From IMG/VR virus record IMGVR_UViG_3300032456_000008, positions 1 through 40,042 of that record: a DNA stretch of 40,042 nt. One strand, given 5' to 3'. Positions 7,273 to 32,933 of the stretch are shown in pieces. The number at the start of each line of letters is the position of its first letter. The first letter of the stretch is position 1. Source of the DNA: a virus. Under the pieces are notes generated by a model, which made no database searches, was not told the DNA's origin, and saw nothing but the letters and a program-made list of their open reading frames with translations. The translations under genes and the position numbers were made by a program.

Positions 7273-7845
7273 TCAGCTCGCGACGGGCGCGAAGGCCGGA
7301 TCGTCGGAGTCGATGTTCCACGGGTCGGAGCCTTCGGCCGGCGCGAGGATCTGGAAAGTGATCGGGAGAAGCGCGGGTCCGCTCTTCGCCCACACGCTCT
7401 CAGTGTTGCTCGTGACGAAGGCGCGGCCAGCGGAGAACCGATAGTTCTTCGCGCCGTCTGCGAAGTCGATCACGATCGCAACGATCGTGAGCTCCTCCGG
7501 GCTCGGGGGGCTGTAGCGGTACTCGCCGGGGCGGGGCTGGGTGATCCCTCCGCCACCGTAGGCGAGGATCATGTTCGCTTCGTTCCACTGCAGGAGCGTC
7601 GCCTCGATCATCGCCGACCGCTCGGTGATGTGGGTCCGCACAGGGTAGAAGCTCTGCCACGGGCGAACGTCGTTCGTGCTCTTCTCGTCGGTGAACTTCG
7701 CACCGTCGTCGGTCGTGAAGCCGACTCCGAGGAAGTTGGGGTCCAGAGCGTCCGTGAGGTAGCCGGGGAGCGGCGTGCCTTCGGGTGCGTGGTAGATCGT
7801 GCCAGTCCCGGCGATGACGATCTCTTCGGGTGCTTGTGTGGGCAT
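7273..7845 (-). CDS. Major tail protein
   Basis: This 190-aa protein has an ATG start and a perfect AGGAGG at the right distance, as expected for an abundant structural protein. The sequence opens with EEIVIAGTGTIYHAPEGTPLP, then a GVGFTTDDGAKFTDEKSTNDVRPWQS region and a C-terminal FADGAKNYRFSAGRAFVTSN segment. This pattern of a beta-sandwich tube protein is common to siphophage major tail proteins of Gram-positive hosts. Position directly before the chaperones and after the tail terminator supports it. An alternative such as a tail sheath is ruled out by the size and by the absence of contractile genes. Confidence 0.85.
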   Translation of the reverse strand: MPTQAPEEIVIAGTGTIYHAPEGTPLPGYLTDALDPNFLGVGFTTDDGAKFTDEKSTNDVRPWQSFYPVRTHITERSAMIEATLLQWNEANMILAYGGGGITQPRPGEYRYSPPSPEELTIVAIVIDFADGAKNYRFSAGRAFVTSNTESVWAKSGPALLPITFQILAPAEGSDPWNIDSDDPAFAPVAS

Positions 7846-8660: not shown

Positions 8661-9034
8661 GCGCTCCGGTCGAGTTTGGCGGTCACGTACTCGACGAGCT
8701 GGGTTCGCGGGTTGAGCACGGGCCACGGCGGGCCGGCGACATTGAACGGTTCGCCCACGTTGGGGACGAGTGCGCCGGCGACAAGCTGGCCGTTTGCGAT
8801 GATCCGGTCGCCGGCGTCGATCCGGCCGGAGGCGCTGCGCTCGATGGCGAGCTGCCACTGCTCGGTCTCGACCTGCTGGTTTCCGGTGAGCTCATTCGCG
8901 GAGGTCTGCCACACGTAGCCGAGAAAGCGGGTCCACGTGGTCTCCTCGGTCGGATCGCCCATCTCGTCGGGCGGCCCGGTTTGCGTGGTGTGCTCGACGA
9001 TGATCGGTTGGTGGAGGAGGCGGGAAGGGTCCAC
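8657..9034 (-). CDS. Head closure / head-tail stopper protein
   Basis: This 125-aa protein has a GTG start at 9034 with GGAAGG 8 nt before it. The sequence (HQPIIVEHTTQTGPPDEMGDP, then TWTRFLGYVWQTSANELTGNQQVETEQWQLAI) is a small beta-barrel-like protein. This resembles SPP1 gp16-like/phage head-closure proteins, which often open with a 'h.V.I.r....D..G......' pattern. It lies between the head-tail adaptor (9039-9701) and the gp10-like neck protein, in the usual order adaptor, stopper, neck, terminator. The ribosome site and spacing decide the start over longer upstream readings. Confidence 0.7.
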   Translation of the reverse strand: MDPSRLLHQPIIVEHTTQTGPPDEMGDPTEETTWTRFLGYVWQTSANELTGNQQVETEQWQLAIERSASGRIDAGDRIIANGQLVAGALVPNVGEPFNVAGPPWPVLNPRTQLVEYVTAKLDRSA

Positions 9035-9038
9035 GCGG

Positions 9039-9701
9039 TTACCTTCCGCCGGCGGAGATCGTTCCGCCGGTGCGGTTGAGCATCTTACGGAGGCGCTTCC
9101 GTTCTGAGCTCGTGACGTGCGAACCGTCGTTCGTGTTGGTCGAAGCGCCATAGCTCACGGAGTAGACGGCGAGGGTTTCCTGTGTGATCTGGCCGACGTT
9201 GCCGAAGGTGCGCGCCGCAATGCGCAGCACGAGCGATCGGATGAAGTCGGGGACGGGTGCGGCGAATCCCCACTCGAGCTCGACGGCGACAGTCGCCGCG
9301 GGTCCGGACCATCCGCGCCCGGCGCGGCTGTTCGCGCCTTGGTGCCCGGAGTTGTCGTCGTCGCTGTCGTCGAGGAGGTCGAGGGCGTTCATCCCTCGGC
9401 GGAGAATCGATCGATCGTTGAAGTAGTAGCCGGCGGCGTCGATCGCAAGGCCGTTGATCGTCACGGCGGTGACGTTGCGGATGGGGCCTGCGGGTAGGAC
9501 GAGGTCTCTTGACCACGTCCCGGCGAGAACCACGGTCCCGGAGCCGGCCTCGATCGGCACTCCGGCGGCGGCCTCAACGTCGGCGGAGATCATCTCGAGG
9601 AGGATCTGAGCTTGCGCGATCCACTCCGGGGAGAGATCGGCAAGGTTCGTGGTCCCGTTGAAATACTGCGCGAGCTCCAATGGGGAGACGAAGGTGGTCA
9701 T
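9039..9701 (-). CDS. Head-tail adaptor (gp6/gp15-like connector)
   Basis: This 220-aa protein has an ATG at 9701 overlapping the stop of the last glycosyltransferase by 4 nt, plus a GAGAGGAG site. It begins FVSPLELAQYFNGTTNLADLSPEWIAQAQILLEMISADVEAAAG, a helical opening typical of phage connector adaptor proteins. Then a beta domain follows (VVLAGTWSRDLVLPAGPIRNV) and a C-terminal helix (VPDFIRSLVLRIAARTFG). An Asp/Ser/Asn-rich loop occurs near residue 110. It should bind the portal ring and provide the platform for the stopper. In most relatives this gene follows the capsid gene directly. Here 3.6 kb of glycosyltransferase genes separate the two. Confidence 0.8.
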   Translation of the reverse strand: MTTFVSPLELAQYFNGTTNLADLSPEWIAQAQILLEMISADVEAAAGVPIEAGSGTVVLAGTWSRDLVLPAGPIRNVTAVTINGLAIDAAGYYFNDRSILRRGMNALDLLDDSDDDNSGHQGANSRAGRGWSGPAATVAVELEWGFAAPVPDFIRSLVLRIAARTFGNVGQITQETLAVYSVSYGASTNTNDGSHVTSSERKRLRKMLNRTGGTISAGGR

Positions 9702-10564
9702 CGCTGGCGCTCCTCTCTGACGATTGCGAAGGTTCGGATCTGCTCGACCTCGTCCGGATCGACGGTTTCGTAGAGAGATCCTCGAAACTTGACGAGGTCC
9801 CCGCACGGGAGCCGGAGCGATGTTCGGTTGGCGGTCATCCGGAACCGTACCGGAGCTTCGAGCGGTGGAGCGGGAATCCACTCTTCGCCGGCGACGACTG
9901 CGGCCATCCGCCGGCGAACTCCTCGCGCTGCCCGATACCGCGCCACGAGCTCCTCGGAGGCCGGGGAACCTCGAAGGTTCGGCGCTGGGTGAGGGTGCCA
10001 GAGATGGACAAGGCGGCCGGCGAGGCGTTGGCCTTCGCCGGCGAGCGTCTGCAGTGCCCATCCGAACGCAACGTCCTCGCCTCCCCATCCGAGGAAGCGG
10101 CGATCGATCCCGCCCACGAGCTTGAAGGCGGAGCGCGCGACGACGGTGATTCCTCCGCCGATCGGGCCTTCGTAGACTGGGCGGACGGTGTAGCCGAGGC
10201 GCGGGGCGAGCTCGGGGGCGTCGGTGATCCTTGTCGTCTCGTCGGAGCGGAGCCGGTAGACCTTCGAGTGAGGGACGGCGTAGGGGTGGCCGGCGAGGCG
10301 GACGAGGTCGATAGCGGTCCGGAGATCGGCGGGGTCGAGCATGAATGAGTCGGCGTCGGCCAGCACGAGGACTTCGGCGGAGGTTCGCTCGAAGGCGGCG
10401 GCGATCGCTTCGCCTTTGCTCCACTCGGAGTTGGGCGCGCACGCGCCGGAGATGAGCTCGACATCGGGGAAGTGTCGGTCGTACCACTGTTCGACATAGC
10501 CGAGGGCTCGTCCGCGCCACTCGTCGGTGATCCCGGAGGGCATGAGGGCGGCGATCGAGCTCAC
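9698..10564 (-). CDS. Glycosyltransferase (GT-A fold, galactosyltransferase-type C-terminus)
   Basis: This 288-aa protein has a GTG start overlapping the previous stop by 4 nt (GTGA). Motifs: a LADADSF aspartate motif for metal/nucleotide-sugar binding, then GGIDRRFLGWGGEDVAFGW, the signature of the Glyco_transf_7C domain, and LVHLWHPHP. After the catalytic part, the last ~60 residues form a separate small domain (RFRMTANRTSLRLPCGDLVKFRGSLYETVDPDEVEQIRTF). This resembles short domains found on phage structural proteins and may dock the enzyme on the virion or its precursor. The N-terminus lacks the classical first strand of GT2, so it may be trimmed or the start lies further upstream. It is the fifth and last of five coupled glycosyltransferase genes. 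Confidence 0.8.
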   Translation of the reverse strand: MSSIAALMPSGITDEWRGRALGYVEQWYDRHFPDVELISGACAPNSEWSKGEAIAAAFERTSAEVLVLADADSFMLDPADLRTAIDLVRLAGHPYAVPHSKVYRLRSDETTRITDAPELAPRLGYTVRPVYEGPIGGGITVVARSAFKLVGGIDRRFLGWGGEDVAFGWALQTLAGEGQRLAGRLVHLWHPHPAPNLRGSPASEELVARYRAARGVRRRMAAVVAGEEWIPAPPLEAPVRFRMTANRTSLRLPCGDLVKFRGSLYETVDPDEVEQIRTFAIVREERQR

Positions 10565-11388
10565 GAGCCGGGCGCCGGATCGAAGATGAGAGCGGGCTGG
10601 ATCTCTCCGTCCGGGGTTTCGAGCTGGGCTCGTGGCTCTGCTCGCCAGTACCACGTGTGGTAGAGCTCCTCGATCGCCTGCTCGCCGAGGTCGTCGAGGA
10701 TCTGTCCCCACTGGCGCCAGTGTGCGCCGAAGGACATCGGGAGAGAGTCGCCCGCAGCGGCGTAGGCGGCCGCGCCGTTGCGAACCTTCCGGATGACCTG
10801 CTCCGGCGAGCGATAGGGGAAATGTCTGACCACGAGGAGCTCGTCGAACATGGTCCCGCGCCCGGCGTAGTGCGCGCCGTGGTTCCCCTGCTCGATCACG
10901 AGATCGGCGCGCCATCTCGCCGCGACCTTCGGGAGAGGATTCGGTTCGTGCCGGCGCCATCCAAGGCGGGCGATCGGGTCGATCTCGGCGGGGTCGAGCG
11001 CAGTCGAGACGTGATCGAAGAGCGGCGCCGGAGTGATGAGCCACTGCGGGGCGACTTCGGCGAGGACGTCGGCGATCCGGCCGAACGGGGAGTACCACCA
11101 CTCATCAGCGTCGAAGGGGACGACCCACTCGGCGCCGAGGTCGAGGCGGGCGCGCAGAGCGAGGCCGGTCATTTTCTGCGACTGGCGATATGCGGGATCG
11201 TTGTCCTCAACCACGAGGAGCCGGCCTTCGGCGCCGGCGGCGAGCTCGTCGAGAATCGCCCTTGTCCCGTCGGTCGAAAGGTTGTCGGCGACGATCACGG
11301 CGTCGACCTCGTCGAGCATGTGAGCGACGGTCGAGCGGATCACGTCCTCCTCGTCTCGGGCCATGCACACGGCGACGACTCGCGTCAT
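10561..11388 (-). CDS. Glycosyltransferase family 2-like protein
   Basis: This 275-aa protein starts at an ATG that shares one base with the previous stop (TGATG). The N-terminus is textbook GT2: VVAVCMARDEEDVIRSTVAHM, then VDAVIVADNLSTDGTRAILD, followed by GAEWVVPFDADEWW with the DxD metal motif. The C-terminal half has conserved His and aromatic patches (LVVRHFPYRSPEQVIRKV) as in phage and capsular GT2 proteins. Such enzymes transfer sugar from a nucleotide-sugar in the cytoplasm. The acceptor is unknown. Lying between capsid and connector genes, a virion protein is a plausible target. Confidence 0.85.
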   Translation of the reverse strand: MTRVVAVCMARDEEDVIRSTVAHMLDEVDAVIVADNLSTDGTRAILDELAAGAEGRLLVVEDNDPAYRQSQKMTGLALRARLDLGAEWVVPFDADEWWYSPFGRIADVLAEVAPQWLITPAPLFDHVSTALDPAEIDPIARLGWRRHEPNPLPKVAARWRADLVIEQGNHGAHYAGRGTMFDELLVVRHFPYRSPEQVIRKVRNGAAAYAAAGDSLPMSFGAHWRQWGQILDDLGEQAIEELYHTWYWRAEPRAQLETPDGEIQPALIFDPAPGS

Positions 11389-12053
11389 CAGTAGTCGATC
11401 CCAGCGCGCACGTGTCCGATGTGGTGGCACCATTCGCCGGAGTCACGAGATCCCCAATAGCCGGAGCGGGCACCGGGGTCCTCGAAGAGCTGCAGGGAGA
11501 ATCGACCCTCGCTCTGCTCGCCGGTCGGCCATCCTCGCTCCATCAGTTCGCGCCGGTAGAGGCCGGGGTTCGTCGTGAAAAAGCGGCGGTGCTCGAGCCA
11601 CTCGTTCCCGTGTTCGTCTGCGGCGGCGATGAAGTCGTCGGGGTGGAGCTCGACGATCCCGCCGGCGGCGAGCTCCTCGGCGTTCCACGGTTGCCGGCGG
11701 AGCGCGAGTTGGGCGAGGTACTTCTCGCGCAGAAGGACGGAGGCCATCCGATCGACCTCGATGAGCCGGGGGAACGTGAAGTCGTCCTCGAGATGAAAGA
11801 CGAACGGGGCGGAGCTTTCGGCGAGCAGCGTCGACCATGCGCTGCGGATCGCGCCTCCGAATCCGGAGCGGCCAGCGGTCGAGACCACGCGCCACGAGGG
11901 GAACACTCGCCGAAGTCTGGCGGCGTTGCTTGGATCTCCGGAGTCGTCGTGTATCCACTTCTCCGAGATGGGGCCGTCGAGAAAGGCCTCGGCGCTGGGG
12001 ATCGTCTGGAAGATGTGGTCTCGTCCGTCGGTCATCACGAGGAGCGCGATCAT
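11388..12053 (-). CDS. Glycosyltransferase-like protein (GT-A fold)
   Basis: This 221-aa protein has an ATG at 12053 in a 4-nt ATGA overlap. An AAAGG ribosome site (within GAAAGGCC, a sequence also used before recT and the membrane protein gene at 39371) lies upstream. It begins IALLVMTDGRDHIFQTIPSAEAFL, then WIHDDSGDPSNAARLRR, then APFVFHLEDDFTFP, where the EDD is the expected aspartate motif. It has the GT-A topology but is less typical than its neighbours. The C-terminal half carries many Trp, His and Tyr residues. The donor and acceptor cannot be told. Confidence 0.75.
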   Translation of the reverse strand: MIALLVMTDGRDHIFQTIPSAEAFLDGPISEKWIHDDSGDPSNAARLRRVFPSWRVVSTAGRSGFGGAIRSAWSTLLAESSAPFVFHLEDDFTFPRLIEVDRMASVLLREKYLAQLALRRQPWNAEELAAGGIVELHPDDFIAAADEHGNEWLEHRRFFTTNPGLYRRELMERGWPTGEQSEGRFSLQLFEDPGARSGYWGSRDSGEWCHHIGHVRAGIDY

Positions 12054-12652
12054 GGTCGGGCCTTTCTGAGCCACGCCGCGTGGCTGCGGAGGATCTCTCG
12101 GTGCAGGGTGTGCGGCCGGTCGACGGTGCTGTTCCGGCCAGCGGTGTTCACGTTCACACGGTAGACGGCGGCGGGGACGTGCTCGATCTTTGCGCCGAGC
12201 AACCAGCATCGGCGGAAGAGCGACCAGTCTTCCCACGCCTTCTCGGGCCAGAAGCGGCCGGCCTCCTCGAAGAGCTCCCGGCGGAGGAGGGTTCCGATCA
12301 CGCACGGGTTCAGGTTCGAGATGTTGCGGCGTTCCAAGGTCTGCGCCGGCGGGAGCGGTTCTCCGCCGGTCACGTAGCGGACGGCCGGAGCGCGGAGATC
12401 GCCGGCCGCGGCGAGCAGAGCGGCGAGGTATCCCGGTTCGAGCTCGTCGTCGGCGTCGAGGAAGCATAACCACTCGGAGCTGGCGGCGGCGGCGGCGGCG
12501 TTGCGCACCTGGTGCAGCGAGCTCCCGTGGTGGACGATGAGCTCGGTCGGGCGCTCGGCCTCGGCGCTGGGAACTGCGATCGTGCGCGCCAGCTGCGCCC
12601 ATCGCTCCTCGCCGAAGGTGGCGACGATCACCGCGACAGAGTCAGAGACCAT
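12050..12652 (-). CDS. Glycosyltransferase family 2 protein
   Basis: This 200-aa protein starts at an ATG, chosen because the first strand SVAVIVATFGEERW then stays intact. A GTG at 12631, in a GTGA overlap with the previous gene, is the alternative and would give 193 aa. Motifs: VHHGSSLHQVRNAAAAAA, the EWLCFLDADDELEPGYL DxD region, and WPEKAWEDWSLFRRCWLLG, the ED.W general-base motif of GT2 enzymes. No clear ribosome site precedes either start, so translation is probably coupled. It belongs to the five-gene cassette. Confidence 0.85.
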   Translation of the reverse strand: MVSDSVAVIVATFGEERWAQLARTIAVPSAEAERPTELIVHHGSSLHQVRNAAAAAASSEWLCFLDADDELEPGYLAALLAAAGDLRAPAVRYVTGGEPLPPAQTLERRNISNLNPCVIGTLLRRELFEEAGRFWPEKAWEDWSLFRRCWLLGAKIEHVPAAVYRVNVNTAGRNSTVDRPHTLHREILRSHAAWLRKARP

Positions 12653-13344
12653 AGTTTGCGGCGGCGGAGGTACACGCGCCGACCATCTTCCATGCGCCGG
12701 CGCTGGGCGTTGTAGAGGGCGTCGCGTGGTGCTTTCCCCCACGAGGGGTGAAGGTGCTCGACTACGGAGCCGGCGGCGAAGGTCCACGCGTCCCGCGCCT
12801 TGGCGGTCTCGACGAGTTCGTCGTCGACGTATTCGTGCGGGTATCCCTCATGCAGGATCTTCCCGGGCTCGTCGATAGTGCCGAGGTCGTCTGCGTACCG
12901 GCGGCGGATCATGCAATGTGTCGCGTGTTCTCCGGCGAGGGAACGGACGGTGGGTGCGAGGTCCTGCGTTCCGACCACTCCGATCGCCGGCGACGAGAAG
13001 GGGGCCAGCGCTGCGGGGAGCCACCCGGGGTGGAAGGCGAGATCGTCTGCGGCGAGAAACAGGAACGGGGCTGAGGTCGTGCGGTACGCGTGGTTCACCT
13101 TGCGCGCGTAGTCGCCGACATTGCTCGGGGCGAGAACGTGGAGCGAGATCGTCGGGTCGTCCTCGGCGAGACGCAGGATCTCGGCGATTACGGCGGAGTC
13201 GCCGGCGGTCGCGACGAAGTCGATCCGATGGGGCTCGGGCGTCGCAGCTTCGAGGGAGTCAAGGAACGGGGCCACCCGGTGAGGCCGGCGAAGGACGGGG
13301 ACGATCACGGCCACTTCGGCCAGCTCGTCCCCGTCCTCGCTCAT
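12628..13344 (-). CDS. Glycosyltransferase family 2-like protein
   Basis: This 238-aa protein is the first gene of the cassette, 22 nt after the stop of the major capsid gene. The N-terminus VAVIVPVLRRPHRVAPFLDSL is GT2-like. NVGDYARKVNHAYRTTSAPFLFLAADDLAFHPGWL then carries the aspartate motif, and later YPHEYVDDELVETAKARDAW gives a plausible catalytic acidic patch. The C-terminus is basic (RRRMEDGRRVYLRRRKLW). The ribosome site (GAGGG) is weak, so expression probably depends on readthrough from the highly translated capsid gene. It resembles mycobacteriophage virion glycosyltransferases in placement only. Homology was not tested. Confidence 0.85.
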   Translation of the reverse strand: MSEDGDELAEVAVIVPVLRRPHRVAPFLDSLEAATPEPHRIDFVATAGDSAVIAEILRLAEDDPTISLHVLAPSNVGDYARKVNHAYRTTSAPFLFLAADDLAFHPGWLPAALAPFSSPAIGVVGTQDLAPTVRSLAGEHATHCMIRRRYADDLGTIDEPGKILHEGYPHEYVDDELVETAKARDAWTFAAGSVVEHLHPSWGKAPRDALYNAQRRRMEDGRRVYLRRRKLWSLTLSR

Positions 13345-13366
13345 GTTGGTAGCTTCGCCCTCGAGG

Positions 13367-14347
13367 TCAGCTTGCGCCGACGGGTTCCAGCGAGGCGAAG
13401 GGGTAGCGGGTTCCCTCGTCCTCGTTGACGAGGTTGATCGGGTTCGGGAGTGCCCAACCCACCCGGAAGACGACGCGCAGCGCGCTCGAATCCTGCTGGG
13501 GGAGGTTCATGATGATGTTGTTGGAGGCGTCGGTGATGACGCCTTCGGTGATGACCTTGTAGGTCAGGTCTTGGCGGATGCTCCATACGAGCTGCGACCA
13601 GTCGCCGGAGATCAGGAGCGAGCGGGCCGGGTCCATCGCACCATTGCGGGGGAACATGAGCTGTTCCCCATCGAGCGCGTACATGGTCGGGCCGTCGGCC
13701 ATCTTCGCCGACGTGAAGATCGGCGATCCGGTGGCGTTCCCGTCGACATCCTTCTCGCGAAGGCCGCGAAGCTTGGCGCGCATCCGGAGCGCGGCGACGT
13801 GGCCGCTCGGGAAGTAGCCGTCCTCTTCGATCAGCGAGAGCACTCCGCCCTCGCCCATGAGGTCGTCGTACAGGTCGCCGACATCTCCGAGGGTCACGCG
13901 GTGGCCGGCCTCTTCGATGCCGATCGAGAGAGCGTCGGGCCACGAGCTCGGGGCGTTGATCCCGTACAGCACCGCCTGATCGAAAACCTTGCCGATGGCC
14001 GAGATGATCCCGGGGCGGACCTCGGTCAAGATGTCGTAGTCGGCATCGTCGGCCACCGCGTCGGGGATCACCACGAAACAGGCGATCTCCTCGGCCTCGA
14101 TGAAGACGTTGTCCCACGCGGCCTTCGTGGACTGCTTCAAGCCGGTGTCGCCGTTCACGAAGTAGGCCTGGGGGAGCTGGGTCCACACGGGCATGCGGCG
14201 CTGCTTGCGCGACATGTTGGGGAGCTGGCGGCCGAGGTTCATCACCACGGAGTCGGCGGCGATGTTGCCGAGGATCTCCGTCGCGATGTCTTCGGGCATG
14301 AGCGCTTGCCCATCCTCGCGAGTGATCTGATCGTTGTAAGTAGGCAT
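13367..14347 (-). CDS. Major capsid protein (HK97 fold)
   Basis: This 326-aa protein has an ATG start with a strong AGGAGGT site, in keeping with very high expression. The sequence fits the phage_capsid/HK97 family without an N-terminal delta domain: an N-arm (ILGNIAADSVVMNLGRQLPN), the E-loop region (RRMPVWTQLPQAYFVNGDTG), a spine helix (IISAIGKVFDQAVLYGINA), and a C-terminal P-loop/strand (ALRVVFRVGWALPNPINLVNED). A separate scaffold gene lies just upstream, which fits the missing delta domain. It forms the icosahedral shell. Glycosyltransferase genes follow immediately, making it one candidate for modification. Confidence 0.95.
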   Translation of the reverse strand: MPTYNDQITREDGQALMPEDIATEILGNIAADSVVMNLGRQLPNMSRKQRRMPVWTQLPQAYFVNGDTGLKQSTKAAWDNVFIEAEEIACFVVIPDAVADDADYDILTEVRPGIISAIGKVFDQAVLYGINAPSSWPDALSIGIEEAGHRVTLGDVGDLYDDLMGEGGVLSLIEEDGYFPSGHVAALRMRAKLRGLREKDVDGNATGSPIFTSAKMADGPTMYALDGEQLMFPRNGAMDPARSLLISGDWSQLVWSIRQDLTYKVITEGVITDASNNIIMNLPQQDSSALRVVFRVGWALPNPINLVNEDEGTRYPFASLEPVGAS

Positions 14348-14365
14348 TTTTTGGGGACCTCCTGG

Positions 14366-14941
14366 TCAGCCGCCGCGGATGCGCCGGCGAATCGTGTCAT
14401 TGAAACTGGTCCCGGAGCTCTGCGTCGCGCCTCCGCCGGGGAGCGGCCGGGCCTTACCTGCAGCGGCGAGGTAGGGCTTGGCCTTCACGAGCTCGTCGAT
14501 CGCCGACGTGATCGCCTTTTCGTCCACTTCGCCTTTGACGATGAAGCGGTCGAGGTCGCCGAGCATTGCGGCGGCGTCCTCTGGATCTTGCAACTTACCG
14601 CCGGCGGCGCCTCGGATCTCGGATCTCGTGATCCGCCGGTTCGCTTCGAGCGTCGCCTCGTCGCGTCCGGCCTTCTTCGCGGCATCGATCGCCTTCTCCT
14701 CGGTGGACTGGTTCTTTGTGCGGAGCTCGTCGCGCTCGGCCTCGGCGGCGAGGCGTGCTCGCTCCGAGGCGTCGGCGCGGTTTCGTTCCGCTCGTAGTGC
14801 TTTGAGGCCAGTTTCGCCGAGACCTTCGGGGTCGGTGTCTGCGGGCTTCGGTGGCGTTGCTGGCGGTGTTGCACCTGCGCCGGTCGCCGGCGGTGGTGTT
14901 CCTGTTGCCGGCGCTGCCGGTGCTTCTGCTGCTGCTCCCAT
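14366..14941 (-). CDS. Scaffolding protein
   Basis: This 191-aa protein has an ATG start and an AAAGAGG site. The first ~35 residues are Ala/Pro/Thr-rich and disordered. A long charged helical coiled-coil region follows at about 45-150 (ALRAERNRADASERARLAAEAERDELR and on). The C-terminus is basic (NDTIRRRIRGG), which in scaffolds binds the capsid protein. Composition, length and position directly before the major capsid gene all agree. It should direct procapsid assembly and leave before or during DNA packaging. Confidence 0.9.
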   Translation of the reverse strand: MGAAAEAPAAPATGTPPPATGAGATPPATPPKPADTDPEGLGETGLKALRAERNRADASERARLAAEAERDELRTKNQSTEEKAIDAAKKAGRDEATLEANRRITRSEIRGAAGGKLQDPEDAAAMLGDLDRFIVKGEVDEKAITSAIDELVKAKPYLAAAGKARPLPGGGATQSSGTSFNDTIRRRIRGG

Positions 14942-14993
14942 CGCGGGCGCCTCTTTCTGTCTGGCCGGGCATCGCGCTCCGGCGAGAGGAATC

Positions 14994-15197
14994 CTACGCG
15001 TGCGGAATGCGAGAGAGTGCGGATCTCATCTCGTCGAGGTCTTGCCACGCGTCCTCCGGGAGCTCGTCGTCGATGGGGGTCGAGGCGTCGCGCTGGCGGC
15101 GAAGGACAGTAAACGCGCCGGCCTCCCACTCTGCCAGCTTCTGGCGACTGGCGCCGGTGGTCGAGTTTGGGCGTTCATCCCCACGGAATCCGGGCAT
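14994..15197 (-). CDS. Small protein between MuF-like and scaffold genes
   Basis: This 67-aa protein starts at an ATG with an excellent AGAGGAGG site, overlapping the end of the MuF-like gene by 23 nt. The N-terminal half is basic (MPGFRGDERPNSTTGASRQKLAEWEAGAFTVLRRQ, shown in part here only as a basic stretch). The C-terminal half is acidic (DDELPEDAWQDLDEMRSALSRI). I do not recognise a family. The ribosome site and position in the head operon argue that it is expressed and may be a minor head or assembly factor. Confidence 0.75.
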   Translation of the reverse strand: MPGFRGDERPNSTTGASRQKLAEWEAGAFTVLRRQRDASTPIDDELPEDAWQDLDEMRSALSRIPHA

Positions 15198-17115
15198 GAT
15201 CGGGAACCTCCTCTCCGGCCTTGCGGGCGGTGCTCACGATCCGAGCGTACAGGTCCTCGAAGTCGAGGCCGGGCTCGTCGAGGTACTGCGGGACAAGCTC
15301 GGCGTAGCGGCGGCGGGCGGCGGCGCCGGCGTCGTTTTCCCGGATCGCGTATTCAAGATCACGGACCTCCTCCTCCCACGTCTGGAAACTCATACGGTAG
15401 GGGCTCGGGCCTTCGACTGCGCCCACGGCATCTCCGAGGAAGTCGAGGGCCTCGCGCTGGACAAGCTGCGCCTCGGTCCCGGCGATATGGCCGGCGGCGG
15501 CGAGATCATCTCCGAAAAGCATGCCGATGTCGTAACCCTGATCGGAGAGACCGGGGAGGAGCTGGTCGACGTCGATCTGGCCGGAGTATGCGTCGAGGCT
15601 AGGGAGTTTCCCTCGGCGGAGCGCGCCGGCCGACTCGGCCTTCCGGTTCAGCTCGAGCCAGAGGTCTGCGGCCTGCTCGACGTCGAGGTCGCGACCGATC
15701 GCGTTTGAGATGTTGAAGGCCATTTGATCGGGGCCTTGTGAGCCTCCGTACCACGAGCGGGAGAGCCGGGCTTTCTCCCGGTTCGATAATTGCTCAAGCC
15801 AGTCGTATTCCCCGCCGCGTGCCGTCGAGCCGCTACCGGTCCTCGCTCCGATCCTCGGCGGGGCTTTGAGCTTCACAGAGTCGAGGCGGTCGAGCTCTCG
15901 AAGGGCTTCGGTCTGGACGTTGGCGGCCTCCTCCCGGGCGATCTTGCGGACGTCGGCCACCCGGGAGCGGGCGGAGAGGACCTCGTCCGGGGTCACTCCG
16001 TTCTGTTTCGCTATCCGGATCACGTCGGGGTCGGTTGCGTCGAGGGCCTTATCTGCAGCTCGGCGGGCTCGGTCTTCGAGGAAGCGGCGCTCGGCCTTCT
16101 GCTCTCGCAGCTCGATCACGCGATCGGGGGTGACGTTGCGCCGGCGGGCCTCGGCCAGCACGTCGGGGTCGCTGGTGGTCGAGCGCGTGCGGCGCGCCGG
16201 GCCCGGAGCGGAGATATCCGCCGGCGTGGTAGTGGCGTGCTTTGCGTCGGTCAGCATCGGGCCGAGCTCCCCGTGCTCGACCACGTCTACCCGGACCTTG
16301 TCGCCGGGGACGGAGATCCGGCGCGCCGTCGATCCGTCCTTCGAGGGGATCGGCTTCCCGGCGGCGTCGGTGACATACTCGGTTTTGCGGTAGCGGATCG
16401 CGCCGGTCTCGTCCACCATGTACGGGCCGTTCCAGTAGTCGGGCTGGCCGTCCTCGGCGCCGACCTTTTTGAGCTCCTGCAGGAGATCACGGTTGATGAT
16501 CTGGCCGGGGTCATCGGTGCCGAAGATCTCGGCCACGTCACAGTCACACGAGGGGTGGAGCGGGAGAAGGTCGGCGCTCTTGTATCGCTGGGTCGAGGCG
16601 GTTGCGCAAAACGCGCACGAGCGGCCGGTCAGCACCCGGCGGTAGCCGACGACCCACGGGCGGAGCGCGCCTCCCCGGGCCATCTCGCCTTTGTTCGCCA
16701 GACTGACGTCGGTCCGGGCGGCGGTCACAGCGCGAGCTCGACCGGAGGCCATCGCCTCGTCGAAGGTTGCGCCCTTCGCCACCCGGGCCCGCGCTTCGAC
16801 GATCGAGCGCTGATAGACCTCGGAGGCGGGGACTCCGCCGCGGATCTCCGGGAGCACGGGCACGAGGCCGGAAGCGGGGAAGCCTCCAAGCCGGTCGTTT
16901 GCGGACATGTAGGCGACGGCGAGCGTCGAGGTCTGCGCCTTTGCTTGGTCCAGAACCACGGCGGCCGCGGCCGTGAACTGTGAGGCGGCGACGTCGTCGA
17001 GGCCTGCAAACGTGTCCCATTGCTGGCCGATGAGCTGAGCGGTTCCGTCCTGCACTCCGAGGAAGCGGAGGTGGTGCGCCTGCTGGATTCGGACGAGATC
17101 GGCGGGATCGGCCAC
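15175..17115 (-). CDS. MuF-like minor head protein with long C-terminal extension
   Basis: This 646-aa protein has a GTG start 3 nt after the portal stop. The first ~240 residues fit the Phage_Mu_F family, including the zinc-type signature at about residues 160-200: SCAFCATASTQRYKSADLLP then HPSCDCDVAEIFG. This domain is found in minor head proteins bound to the portal. The remaining ~400 residues are unusual in length, highly charged and mostly helical. They include two similar repeats (DPDVLAEARRRNVTPDRVIEL and DPDVIRIAKQNGVTPDEVLSA), suggesting a small duplicated helical module. The extension may be ejected with DNA or act as an internal head protein; that is inference. Confidence 0.8.
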   Translation of the reverse strand: MADPADLVRIQQAHHLRFLGVQDGTAQLIGQQWDTFAGLDDVAASQFTAAAAVVLDQAKAQTSTLAVAYMSANDRLGGFPASGLVPVLPEIRGGVPASEVYQRSIVEARARVAKGATFDEAMASGRARAVTAARTDVSLANKGEMARGGALRPWVVGYRRVLTGRSCAFCATASTQRYKSADLLPLHPSCDCDVAEIFGTDDPGQIINRDLLQELKKVGAEDGQPDYWNGPYMVDETGAIRYRKTEYVTDAAGKPIPSKDGSTARRISVPGDKVRVDVVEHGELGPMLTDAKHATTTPADISAPGPARRTRSTTSDPDVLAEARRRNVTPDRVIELREQKAERRFLEDRARRAADKALDATDPDVIRIAKQNGVTPDEVLSARSRVADVRKIAREEAANVQTEALRELDRLDSVKLKAPPRIGARTGSGSTARGGEYDWLEQLSNREKARLSRSWYGGSQGPDQMAFNISNAIGRDLDVEQAADLWLELNRKAESAGALRRGKLPSLDAYSGQIDVDQLLPGLSDQGYDIGMLFGDDLAAAGHIAGTEAQLVQREALDFLGDAVGAVEGPSPYRMSFQTWEEEVRDLEYAIRENDAGAAARRRYAELVPQYLDEPGLDFEDLYARIVSTARKAGEEVPDHARIPWG

Positions 17116-22274: not shown

Positions 22275-22571
22275 ATGAGTGCTGATGTGCTTCCTTCGGC
22301 TGTTGCGGGTGATTCGTACGCGTGGCGGTTGCGGTTTCCGAGTTTGTCGTTTCTTGTTGGGGCGCCTGGCAATGTGTCGGCACAGATTCGGGATGATCGG
22401 GATCGTTTGTTCGGTTCGTGGTCGGTTGCGGTTGATGGTGCGGATCTGGTGTTGTCGTTGGCTGAGGTTCCGTTGGTTCCTGGTATCTACTTTTTGGATG
22501 TGCAGGTCGGGGCGACGACGTATCTTCGGCGGCTGTCGTGGATCATTGAGCGGCAGGTGTCGAGGCCGTGA
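22275..22571 (+). CDS. Small structural protein upstream of the collagen-like fibre
   Basis: This 98-aa protein opens the only rightward operon. It reads as a single beta-sandwich-like domain: [56 protein letters not shown] and [11 protein letters not shown]. Similar small beta-domains precede fibre genes in other actinophages. An adaptor between virion and fibre is a reasonable inference. The ribosome site is weak. The downstream gene overlaps its stop by 4 nt. Confidence 0.65.
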
Positions 22572-23488
22572 CTGAGGTCGTGGTTGTGCAGGTTGTTCCG
22601 CCGGCGCCGATCGTGGTGGAGGTTGTTCCGCCGGCGCCGATCCTGGTGGAGGTTGTTCCTACTGGTGGTCCTGGGCCTGTCGGGCCAGCTGGCGCGCAGG
22701 GAGCGGTCGGCGCTGTCGGCGCGATGGGAGCGGTCGGGGCTGTTGGGCCGACGGGTGCGGCTGGTGCTGTTGGTGGGGTCGGTCCTGGTGGTGCAACGGG
22801 TGCTGTCGGTCCTGCTGGGGCGGTCGGTGCGACTGGTGCGGGTTCTGTTGTTCCTGGTCCTGCTGGGCCGACGGGTTCGACGGGTGCTGTCGGTCCTGCT
22901 GGGCCGACGGGTCTGGCTGGCGCTGCTGGCGCGACGGGTGCGGCCGGTTCGACGGGTGCTGCAGGTCCTACAGGTTCTTCGGGCGCTGCTGGGCCGACCG
23001 GGCCGACCGGGCCGGCTGGGGCGGCTGGTCTGAATGGTTCGACGGGTGCGGCTGGTCTGAATGGTTCGACGGGTGCGGCTGGGCCTGCAGGTCCTATGGG
23101 GTCGGCCGGTGCTACCGGTGCTGCAGGTCTCGACGGAGCGCCAGGACTCGACGGTGCTGCTGGTGCTGTCGGTCCTGCTGGTGCTGTCGGTGCGACGGGT
23201 TCGACGGGTGCGACGGGTGCGACGGGTGCGACGGGTTCAGTGTTCAAGACGGCGACGGTCACGATCGACAATTTCAATCGGGTGACGGTCGTAGATGCGA
23301 TGGTGGTTCCGGCCTCGATCATCATGATTTGTCAAGGTGTCCCGGTCGCCGGCGACGAGAACGAGCCGGAGCTCGATCCGGTGGCGTGGTCGGTTGTCTC
23401 GGTTGGGACTGGTTCGTTCGTTATGCTCGGAAGTGCGAAAGATCCGATCCGCGGCTCGTTCCGAGTCGCCTACGCAATGGGGTTGTGA
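22568..23488 (+). CDS. Collagen-like fibre protein
   Basis: This 306-aa protein has a GTG start in a GTGA overlap with the previous gene. The first ~33 residues contain the repeated VVPPAPI(V/L)VE element. Residues ~34-224 are about 63 uninterrupted Gly-X-Y triplets, many GPA, GAT, GST and GPT. The last ~82 residues ([24 protein letters not shown] on) form a beta-rich C-terminal domain that likely nucleates the trimer and binds a partner. Such triple-helix fibres occur on phage heads or tails. The Thr/Ser/Pro-rich triplets are also potential O-glycosylation sites. The gene uses GGT/GTT-rich codons, unlike the rest of the genome. Confidence 0.9.
22591..22650. repeat. 30-bp tandem duplication in the fibre N-terminus
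   Basis: Two adjacent 30-base units (22591-22620 and 22621-22650) differ at one base. They encode the repeated [10 protein letters not shown] / [10 protein letters not shown] peptide. The number of units should be able to change by slippage or recombination. Confidence 0.9.
23027..23080. repeat. 27-bp tandem duplication in the collagen-like region
   Basis: Two identical 27-base units at 23027-23053 and 23054-23080 each code for nine residues (GLNGSTGAA). As a multiple of nine bases the repeat keeps the Gly-X-Y register, so gain or loss changes fibre length without breaking the triple helix. Confidence 0.9.
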
Positions 23489-27954: not shown

Positions 27955-28510
27955 CGTGGAGCCACCCGGGGAGACACGCGTCGACGTCGTCGCGTACTCC
28001 GCCGGCGGTTGCCCACACGACGTATTCGGCCTGCGATCGGAAGCCTCCTCGTCGGGGTCGGGTCCCGTCGCCTTTGTCCCACGGGATGATTCCGCGCCAG
28101 ACCCAGCCGCCACTCTGGACGGCGTCGGTTGTCGTGGGGAGCTGGCGCCAGTCGGTGAACATGAGGAGCGAGCCTCCGGGTCGGGTGATCCGGAGGCATT
28201 CGTCGAGCCACGCGATGCACCATTTCAGGTAGCCGCGCTGGTCGCGGTTGTCGCCGGCGAAGTCCGGGCGGTCGATCTGTGTTCCGGTGAGGACGTACTT
28301 GTTGGTGGTCGAGGCCATCCGGTCGCCGCGCGTGAAGCCTCCGGAGGAGTAGGGCGGGTCGGTGATAACGGCGGCGACGGTGGCGTCGGGGATGGCTTGC
28401 ATCACTCCGAGAGATTCTCCCTCGAAGAGCTGCCAGCGTTCGCCGGCGTCGAGCTCGACGGCGCGAGAGCCGGGTAGGACGATTGAGAGCGGCGGTGTCG
28501 GGTCGTTCAT
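27830..28510 (-). CDS. DNA methyltransferase (N4-cytosine/N6-adenine), N-terminal part
   Basis: The ATG start lies in an ATGA overlap with the neighbouring methyltransferase gene. The motif AAVITDPPYSSGG is the DPPY catalytic site, and ITRPGGSLLMFTD and the RSQAEYVVWATAGG segment follow, as in phage beta-class methyltransferases. After about residue 185 the frame turns to unrelated text and ends at 27830; the true C-terminal domain continues in the +1 frame (27580-27954). With one base removed, the gene is a full 309-aa enzyme. It may be an inactive copy, a population variant, or a sequence error. Confidence 0.75.
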   Translation of the reverse strand: MNDPTPPLSIVLPGSRAVELDAGERWQLFEGESLGVMQAIPDATVAAVITDPPYSSGGFTRGDRMASTTNKYVLTGTQIDRPDFAGDNRDQRGYLKWCIAWLDECLRITRPGGSLLMFTDWRQLPTTTDAVQSGGWVWRGIIPWDKGDGTRPRRGGFRSQAEYVVWATAGGVRDDVDACLPGWLHVLDDSTIIPGWIRPGLAGRQASHHRETDRAHAPALAHLPTG

Positions 28511-29328
28511 GTTGGTTCCTGTTCGGTGAGGGCTGAGCCGTGGACGAGGTCCGGGCGGCCGGCGTAGAGGTCGAGGCCGATCCCGTGGCGGCCGAGCGCG
28601 GCGGCGACTCGGGGGACGGTCCCGCTTCCTCCGAAGGGGTCGAGCACGATGTCGCCGGGGAGTGTGGTCGGCAGGATGCAGCGGCGGGCGAGCTCGTCGG
28701 GGAACGGGGCGAGATGAGGGTCGCCGGAACTTCCGGGCGGGAAGTGCCAGACGGAGCCGGTTTCGACGAGGCCGGAGGGGTACCACTTCGGGCGGAGGTC
28801 ACGGGCCCGGCGCGCTCGTTCCCACGGGACGAGGAGGTAGATCATCTCGTGTGACCATCGCGGCCGGCGAACGTGCTGCAGGGATTCGGGGGACTCGCGG
28901 CCTTTGTCCCACACGATCGGGAGCCGGAGGCGCCATCCTCGGCGGAGCAACTCGTGCAGGACGTGGCCGGGGACGTCCACGAACGATCCCTCGGCGAAGG
29001 CGGGGTCTCGGAAGCGGCCGGGGCCTCCGCCGGCGTTGCTCCTGGGTTTCTTTGCGGTGGCCCAGTCTCCGCCGGCGCCTCCGGAGTTGTTGGCCTTGTC
29101 GCCGAGGTTCAGCCAGCACGAGCTCGTGTCGGGTTTCATCACGCGCCGGATCTCGTCGAAGACGTCGGCGATCATCGTCACGTACTCGGCGACGGTCTCC
29201 TCGCGCCCGACCTCGCGCTCGTCGTCGGTCCCGTAGGTGCGCTGCTTCAAGTAGGGCGGTGAAGTCACCACGCAATCGACGGAGCCGGAGGCGAGAGGGA
29301 TCGTCCGGGCGTCTCCTCGAATCATCAT
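28507..29328 (-). CDS. DNA methyltransferase (N4-cytosine/N6-adenine)
   Basis: This 273-aa protein has an intact order of motifs: DCVVTSPPYLKQRTYG (catalytic S/DPPY), VDVPGHVLHELLRRGWRLRLPIVWDKGRE, the RWSHEMIYLLV region, and GDIVLDPFGGSGTVPRVAAALGRHGIGLDLY (SAM site). The order of catalytic before SAM motif makes it beta class. It lacks a target-recognition region of obvious length. The ATG at 29328 overlaps the previous stop by 4 nt. It should protect phage DNA from host restriction or mark it; the target is unknown. Confidence 0.85.
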   Translation of the reverse strand: MMIRGDARTIPLASGSVDCVVTSPPYLKQRTYGTDDEREVGREETVAEYVTMIADVFDEIRRVMKPDTSSCWLNLGDKANNSGGAGGDWATAKKPRSNAGGGPGRFRDPAFAEGSFVDVPGHVLHELLRRGWRLRLPIVWDKGRESPESLQHVRRPRWSHEMIYLLVPWERARRARDLRPKWYPSGLVETGSVWHFPPGSSGDPHLAPFPDELARRCILPTTLPGDIVLDPFGGSGTVPRVAAALGRHGIGLDLYAGRPDLVHGSALTEQEPT

Positions 29329-29645
29329 CGGTCGGGCCACCCGTCGCGCACCCGCTGGCGAGCTGCAGCGCGCGCCTGCGGTTCCGGGTCGCCGGTGCAC
29401 GCTCCGAGCTCGCACGGGTTGTAAGAGCTGCAGACGATGTCGGGCGGGAGCACGAACGGCGGGCCGGGTCGCTGGGTGAACTGTTCGACTGTTTCGCCGG
29501 CGAGAGCTCCGAGCCATATCGGGCACCCGGTCGGGTCGCCGGTTCCGTCGGGGTGGTAGGCGTGGTCGGCGGTGCATGACGCGCACCACGCGGACGACCA
29601 CGCGCCACCCTCGGTTCCGTTTGCGAAGTAGGTCGGGTCGGGCAT
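29325..29645 (-). CDS. Cys-rich hypothetical protein
   Basis: This 106-aa protein starts at an ATG at 29645 with a GGTGAG site; a GTG at 29660 is the alternative. It has two Cys pairs (WCASCTADHAYH and IVCSSYNPCELGAC) with a GCPIW motif between them, so a metal-bound fold is likely. Similar Cys-rich proteins occur in the early regions of actinophages. No function can be named. Confidence 0.65.
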   Translation of the reverse strand: MPDPTYFANGTEGGAWSSAWCASCTADHAYHPDGTGDPTGCPIWLGALAGETVEQFTQRPGPPFVLPPDIVCSSYNPCELGACTGDPEPQARAAARQRVRDGWPDR

Positions 29646-31927: not shown

Positions 31928-32433
31928 CACGAGGCAACCACGGCGATCGCGTCGATCTCGTGCGGGAGGAGCGATCCCTCGAGCCCGTGCGCTGCTCGGC
32001 CCATCCGTCGAAGGTGGAACGCGTCGGCCTCGTCGTCGTTCACGTTGCCACGGGCGCCAAGCTCGATCGCACGGGCCATCATCGCGTCCTTCGTTGCGTT
32101 GCCGTTCCCGGTCGCGAATCGTTTGAGGGTACCCGGGGGGACGAGCGCTATCCGGAAGTCCTGCTCGAAGAGCCAGGTGCGCACGATCCCGCCGATCTCG
32201 CCGAGACGGACAAGCGAGAGCCGACCAGGTGCGCCGAGGGCGTAGTCCTCCACCACCACAAGGTCCGGGGCCGGCGGGTTCAGCGTGAAGGCGCGCACGA
32301 GATCCCGGGTCAGTTCGTGGAGCCGACGGTAGGGGTCGTCGGCCTTCGCGTGGCCGGAGATGGAGAGCAGGTGGCCGGCGGGTGTGGCGTAGCCAATCCG
32401 TTTTGTCGAGAGGTCAAGGCCGGCGACGTTCAT
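31924..32433 (-). CDS. RuvC-like Holliday junction resolvase
   Basis: This 169-aa protein has an ATG start in an ATGA overlap. It shows the RuvC/RNase H-like acids in order: AGLDLSTKRIGYA (Asp), DLVVVEDYALG (Glu), and NDDEADAFHLRRMG (Asp pair). The layout and length match phage RuvC-like nucleases. It should resolve branched DNA before packaging and belongs with the RecT/exonuclease set in the same operon. Confidence 0.85.
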   Translation of the reverse strand: MNVAGLDLSTKRIGYATPAGHLLSISGHAKADDPYRRLHELTRDLVRAFTLNPPAPDLVVVEDYALGAPGRLSLVRLGEIGGIVRTWLFEQDFRIALVPPGTLKRFATGNGNATKDAMMARAIELGARGNVNDDEADAFHLRRMGRAAHGLEGSLLPHEIDAIAVVASW

Positions 32434-32933
32434 GACAGGGACTCTTTGAGGAGGCGGGCGGTTCCTCCGGCCATTTCCGACAGTCGCACAATGGCGCCGT
32501 CGGCTGCAGGGCCGCGCCCTAGGATCACGGTCGAAAAGTGGACAGATCCCGATGGTGCGCCGAGACCGTTCACGAACTGGATTCGGCGCGCTGCGACGTA
32601 GATGGATGTCGCTGCGGTGAACGCTGCAAACGGTCCGCTGCTGCTGAGGTCGGCTCGAAGGAGGATGCACCCGGCCGGGTGCTGCGCCCATTTGCGACAC
32701 CATTGCGTCGGTGCGCTGTAAGGCGGGTTGCACCACACGACACCCGACCACGGCTGCAGTAGCCCGTCGTCGGCCACGGTGAAACGGTTTCGGGCGGGGA
32801 TCCATGATGGTGCAATGTCGGGGGAAGCGACATCAAGATCAAACACGAGGCCGAGACCTAGAAAAATCCACGGTGGGGTATACCAATCATCGGTGTCTAG
32901 GACGTTGTCGATTCCGAAGAGTCTTCCGCTCAT
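32430..32933 (-). CDS. Phage N6-adenine methyltransferase (Dam-type, phage family)
   Basis: This 167-aa protein has an ATG start in an ATGA overlap. It fits the phage DNA N-6-adenine methyltransferase family: DTDDWYTPPWIF, FDLDVASPDIAPSWIPARN, DGLLQPWSGVVWCNPPYSAPTQW with the NPPY catalytic motif, and the closing FVNGLGAPSGSVHFSTVILG. It is small and single-domain, as usual. It is the third methyltransferase of the genome and probably acts against host restriction. Confidence 0.9.
   Translation of the reverse strand: MSGRLFGIDNVLDTDDWYTPPWIFLGLGLVFDLDVASPDIAPSWIPARNRFTVADDGLLQPWSGVVWCNPPYSAPTQWCRKWAQHPAGCILLRADLSSSGPFAAFTAATSIYVAARRIQFVNGLGAPSGSVHFSTVILGRGPAADGAIVRLSEMAGGTARLLKESLS

Follow-up and report, generated by a model that had tools for sequence, protein, structure and literature searches.

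A five-gene glycosyltransferase cassette in the head module of an uncultivated phage, a probable virion-glycosylation system

Phage-encoded glycosylation of the virion is already known (Freeman 2023, as related in the papers that cite it). Glycosylated proteins occur in Che8, Corndog and Myrna (PMC12363180 and PMC11256854, both citing Freeman 2023), and gp110 of Che8 and gp38 of Corndog are described as essential, the former for glycosylation of the capsid (PMC12363180). The glycans of mycobacteriophages are placed at the C-termini of capsid and tail-tube subunits (PMC12619734, citing Freeman 2023). The locus described here, comprising the genes GT1 to GT5, occupies positions 9698-13344 on the minus strand of IMGVR_UViG_3300032456_000008, a complete IMG/VR viral record of 40042 bases that is possibly a genome fragment and is hereafter called the window. 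As a first-pass annotation had claimed, five glycosyltransferase genes follow one another at this place, between the genes for the major capsid protein (MCP) and the head-tail adaptor. To judge from the sequence, this cassette is probably a virion-glycosylation module, in which a short O-glycan would be built on the last residue, a serine, of both the MCP and the major tail protein (MTP), which forms the tail tube.

The cassette resembles the Che8-type systems in several respects. Both consist of soluble, phage-encoded glycosyltransferases in tandem, GT5 is homologous to Che8 gp109 (BLASTP 6e-7), and the Che8 MCP and MTP have Gly-Ser as their last residues (NKTGS and SDGS), much as those of the window end in GAS and VAS. 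In contrast to the Che8 type, which has about three enzymes, the window has five, located between the MCP and adaptor genes, with a different MCP, in a group of uncultivated and probably actinobacterial phages, and it contains no clear homolog of gp110. The cassette thus appears to work like the Che8 system, with one enzyme family in common, but it would not be a straightforward member because the essential enzyme gp110 is missing. Glycosyltransferase genes are likewise part of the head operon in phage Wildflower (L216, 1902-4654), where an O-methyltransferase and three glycosyltransferases lie between the portal and capsid protease genes; the methyltransferase and two of the glycosyltransferases match Che8 gp108 (in part), gp109 and gp110. 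By resemblance, Wildflower would fall in cluster O, the cluster of the glycosylated Corndog. Phage GX15bay (MK557849) carries homologs of GT2, GT3 and GT4 in the same order and 37-45% identical, but upstream of its terminase gene and together with further glycosyltransferases and a methyltransferase, and its late proteins lack Ala/Gly-Ser tails. The proposal that the locus is an undescribed system therefore holds in part: virion glycosylation is known and Wildflower has similar genes in its head operon, whereas a five-enzyme cassette of conserved order appears to be new.

All five products match glycosyltransferase families in Pfam and PHROG profile searches, in agreement with their initial description as GT-A/GT2-like enzymes. 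GT1 (12628..13344, 238 residues), GT2 (12050..12652, 200 residues) and GT4 (10561..11388, 275 residues) score above the Pfam thresholds for GT2-family domains of the Glycos_transf_2 and Glyco_tranf_2_x types (PF13641 at 1e-7 and PF00535 at 6e-6 for GT1; PF00535 at 2e-8 for GT2, which also matches phrog_14775 at 4e-11; PF13704 at 2e-11 for GT4). GT5 (9698..10564, 288 residues), also galactosyltransferase-like, matches Glyco_transf_7C (PF02709, 2e-7) and phrog_1721 (2e-15). GT3 (11388..12053, 221 residues) has no match in Pfam, and its galactosyltransferase-like character emerges from phrog_3047, galactosyl transferase (3e-8). A search of NCBIfam gave only matches far below threshold. GT1 and GT3, the two enzymes modelled, are predicted with high confidence to adopt GT-A folds (mean predicted local distance difference test scores, pLDDT, of 94.7 with AlphaFold2 and 96.2 with AlphaFold, respectively). 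The best Foldseek match of the GT1 model is the mannosyltransferase PcManGT (7e-10), followed by SpsA; against the PDB, the GT3 model matches RmlT, TarS, TarP and GalNAc-T2 with E-values of about 1e-7 to 1e-6. The DxD-type motifs noticed at first pass are all present, as FLAADD, DADD, LEDD, DADE and DADS in GT1 to GT5, respectively, and those of GT1 to GT4 are conserved among relatives. Invariant residues include E89 and D91 of the LEDD motif in GT3, whose C-terminal ...GxGY is also conserved, and D93, D95 and E96 in GT4. None of the five enzymes contains a membrane segment (maximum 19-residue hydropathy 0.77-1.28). In a contig 97.8% identical to the window (L002), all five genes are intact, and the ratio of nonsynonymous to synonymous substitution rates (dN/dS) is 0.10-0.31 per gene, like that of the MCP gene; the five enzymes are under purifying selection. 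A role in antiphage defence found no match in PADLOC. About 55 extra residues lengthen GT5 at its C-terminus (VRFRMTANRTSLRLP...YETVDPDEVEQIR; 9698-9865, minus strand), an extension that was found only in the window clade and in contig L130; an origin from a separate small head gene was considered and rejected, as the extension is seen only in the GT5 of this clade and of that one other contig.

The cassette is tightly built into the structural gene module, which reads on the minus strand as small and large terminase, portal, MuF-like protein, scaffold, MCP, GT1 to GT5, head-tail adaptor, stopper, tail terminator, MTP and tape measure. The flanking genes are identified by PHROG as major head protein (phrog_10, 8e-35) and head-tail adaptor (phrog_442, 3e-19; 9039..9701, 220 residues). 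GT1 begins 22 nucleotides (nt) after the end of the MCP gene at 13367, and this is the sole gap. Thereafter each gene overlaps the next, by 25 nt for GT1/GT2, 4 nt (ATGA) for GT2/GT3, 1 nt (TGATG) for GT3/GT4, 4 nt (GTGA) for GT4/GT5 and 4 nt (ATGA) for GT5 and the adaptor, so that the translational coupling described at first pass extends into the adaptor as well. Neither a sigma-70-like promoter nor a coding-strand terminator-like site was found in 8900-15200, with scans that are weak for these organisms. Because of the overlaps and the absence of such sites, translation of the cassette most likely proceeds as part of the head operon.

More than 100 relatives were recovered when viral contigs were scanned with GT1, GT3, GT4 and GT5. 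When the loci of each contig were grouped, two or more of the five families were present in 102 contig clusters; the order is exactly GT1-GT2-GT3-GT4-GT5 in 38 of these, and most of the remainder hold a subset. A structural gene could be labelled on one or both sides of the cassette in 48 cases, and in 38 of these the cassette starts directly after the MCP, adaptor or stopper gene. Phages of the window clade have it between MCP and adaptor, those more distantly related between adaptor and stopper. Since the same cassette recurs in the 97.8% identical contig under the constraint given above and in dozens of relatives, it is not a chance assembly. Homologs of GT3 in named genomes lie in prophages of Parafrankia soli (L299) and Actinomadura rubrisoli (L308), and another in a phage region of a Solirubrobacteraceae metagenome-assembled genome; these point to actinobacterial hosts, and the carriers are probably phages of actinobacteria. 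One further relative of GT3 is in a contig binned as Dehalococcoidia. Three more homologs, in metagenome-assembled genomes of candidate phyla (L303, L304 and L305), are not phage-like in appearance, and in L303 and L305 a protein of 900-1262 residues is encoded nearby. The cassettes of relatives also enclose accessory genes for methyltransferases, NAD-dependent sugar epimerases/dehydratases, hexapeptide acyltransferase-like proteins and one sulphotransferase, a set that fits a decorated glycan. According to the first-pass annotation, most siphophages have no gene between MCP and adaptor. This is not so for the cultured MCP relatives Muddy, Eileen, JacoRen57 and Fontainebleau, where one or two small hypothetical genes fill the position; none of the four, however, has a glycosyltransferase at that point, nor was a PF00535 or gp110 match found in their full records or in those of four further controls.

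The proposed acceptors share a distinctive C-terminus. The window MCP (13367..14347, minus strand, 326 residues; PDB homologs 8eci and 8edu) ends ...LEPVGAS, its Gly-Ala-Ser codons and stop lying at 13367..13378, and the MTP (7273..7845, minus strand, 190 residues; iterated hidden Markov model searches gave its homologs in cassette phages) ends ...AFAPVAS, with the Val-Ala-Ser codons and stop at 7273..7284. Where a contig holds three or more of the five families, the terminal residue is serine in 22/23 MTPs and in 15/16 labelled MCPs, mostly as Ala/Gly-Ser. In comparison proteins it is serine in 0/9 terminases, 0/31 portals and 1/33 MuF proteins (jointly 1/73) and in 0/64 GT3 proteins, and the background in non-acceptor genes is 6.7%; Fisher tests of the excess gave 5e-26 and 1e-8, with related proteins treated as independent. 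In 19 further contigs, MCP candidates were picked out by their position; they belong to several unrelated types, and 16 of them have terminal serine (17 with a second candidate in L128). The MTPs, linked at 45% identity, form 16 groups, every one of which ends in serine. The neck proteins are intermediate (30/86, comprising 13/27 tail terminators, 10/32 adaptors and 7/27 stoppers). In cassette-negative relatives of the window MCP family the sequence mostly ends at or close to ...RYPFAVLVP, from which the MCP of the window clade is seen to have an extension of about four residues. In the comparison with relatives lacking the cassette that was proposed at first pass, the nearest cultured ones have neither the enzymes nor the MCP tail. 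Conversely, Wildflower, Sbash, Poise and Gordonia phage Rabbitrun, all with a gp110 homolog, have terminal serine on both MCP and MTP, and eight glycosyltransferase-negative cultured control phages have it on 0/8 MCPs and 1/7 MTPs (Fisher 0.003 and 0.03, small numbers). A mucin-like acceptor region was considered and rejected: the N-terminus of the scaffold protein is rich in Ala, Pro and Thr, but mature capsids are not expected to retain this protein.

The mechanism suggested by these features is that the five soluble GT-A enzymes would be produced late, from the head operon and together with the capsid protein, and would draw on host nucleotide sugars. They may then assemble a short O-glycan, possibly with one sugar per enzyme, on the terminal serine of the short Ala/Gly-Ser tail of the MCP and tail-tube protein, where it could, for example, protect the particle or tune its surface interactions. 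The earlier suggestion that the virion itself is the acceptor is accordingly supported, at the level of genes and predicted proteins, by the serine tails on MCP and MTP, a kind of tail also present in Che8, whose capsid and tail tube carry glycans at their C-termini (PMC12619734, PMC12363180), by the tethering of the cassette to head and neck genes, by the homology of GT5 and gp109, by the lack of membrane segments, and by the failure to find a base-hydroxymethylation pathway in the records searched.

Several observations weigh against this reading. No glycan is directly evidenced, and the modification, the glycan and the initiating enzyme are unproven. The raw p-values ignore kinship, and the support comes from the recurrence of the tail across many MCP types unrelated to one another and across MTPs that have diverged widely. 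In the tree of MCPs, the cassette state changed only three to five times, a paired test has no power, and with too few independent changes the MCP association is not significant after correction for kinship. Terminal serine is also present in 7/52 cassette-negative MCP relatives. The close MCP relative L221 (IMGVR_UViG_3300048930_000681) has GSGS on both MCP and MTP, and its 13-kb contig, which may be a fragment, contains no PF00535 match. Conversely, L129 and L133 carry the cassette, yet their MCP candidates end ...VRITA and ...IALA, and the MTP of L133 likewise lacks the terminal serine. The control MTPs are few, and that of Eileen ends AGS. The GT2-4 homologs of GX15bay are outside the head module, in a phage whose late proteins are without the tail, and Pleione has a gp110 homolog, yet its MCP, sheath and other structural proteins checked have no such tails. 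Finally, phmmer found no match to gp110 among the open reading frames of the window, and profile comparisons with GT1 to GT4 gave probabilities of 0.1-18%. As a gp110-type initiator, GT1 shows no similarity by profile comparison and GT3 shares only the LEDD region (probability 11%), and because both candidates fail no initiator is named.

Other acceptors have been considered. In Gtr systems of temperate phages, whose glycosyltransferases are also phage-encoded, a flippase and membrane enzymes act on cell-surface polysaccharide, and glycosyltransferases of temperate phages often modify the host surface. A corresponding role here, in receptor masking or superinfection exclusion akin to Gtr serotype conversion, gains something from the prophages of P. 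soli and A. rubrisoli, but it is unlikely, as the five enzymes have no membrane segment, no flippase or polymerase was recognised in the cassette, the genes are translationally coupled to late head genes and not to a lysogenic promoter, and the C-terminal serine tails would be left unexplained. The glycan might instead reside on neck, fibre or minor tail proteins, serving receptor binding or stability, with the MCP and MTP modified secondarily or not at all. The serine-ending adaptors, stoppers and tail terminators counted above, and some other late proteins that end GGGS, LGS or IGS, agree with this; in the window, however, the adaptor ends GGR and the stopper RSA, whereas the MCP and MTP bear the tail, so that this alternative is quite unlikely.

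Some phages are known to have glycosyltransferases for modified DNA bases (Pyle 2024, cited in PMC12619734). These enzymes are soluble and phage-encoded like those of the cassette, and could find a parallel in a window that also encodes two DNA methyltransferases. They require a hydroxylated base, however, and in the window and 24 relatives, 25 possibly incomplete records in all, the pathway was not found: the thymidylate-synthase-family hydroxymethylase (PF00303) was absent in a search whose controls worked, and Tet/JBP (PF12851) gave no match in one whose positive controls gave none either. The methyltransferases found are of Dam and N6/N4 types and the cassette is placed with the head genes and not with those of replication, which makes glycosylation of hypermodified bases very improbable. 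A passenger role without a virion acceptor, the cassette being a moron inserted at a tolerant site, might be read from the varying position of the cassette, MCP/adaptor or adaptor/stopper, and from the occurrence of part of it elsewhere in GX15bay. Such a role is very improbable given that the five-gene order is kept in divergent phages under purifying selection, with repeated linkage to head genes and a correlation with serine tails.

Two further features of the window are recorded here. A 260-residue open frame at 22543-23325 (minus strand), rich in Pro, Ala, Val and Thr, lies in a region of strong base skew and has a weak tail-fibre match; it could encode a collagen-like tail protein or else be non-coding. 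The two DNA methyltransferases, of Dam type and N6/N4 type, are encoded in the replication region at 32430-32933 and 28507-29601 (minus strand).

Taken as a virion-glycosylation module, the cassette adds two elements that appear to be new, namely the five enzymes in conserved order within the head module of uncultivated phages and an acceptor tail that can be read from sequence. No account of a serine signal at the C-terminus of glycosylated phage capsid proteins was found in a literature search; the signal may already have been noted in Freeman 2023. A broader reading, to which slightly better than even confidence is attached, is that the Ala/Gly-Ser tail generally marks virion proteins of phages as acceptors of O-glycosylation, and that the cassette is a head-module-linked machine which, without a gp110-type initiator, writes a multi-sugar and sometimes methylated or otherwise decorated glycan on the capsid, tail tube and often neck proteins of diverse uncultivated, mostly actinobacterial phages. 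If true, glycosylation of the particle would not be peculiar to a few mycobacteriophages but widespread in environmental phages, and it would be predictable from the short C-terminal tail together with a glycosyltransferase cassette. The choice of acceptor, the length of the glycan and the order of the enzymes would become directly testable, and these phages would provide a small group of soluble enzymes with which an oligosaccharide might be assembled on a defined protein terminus.

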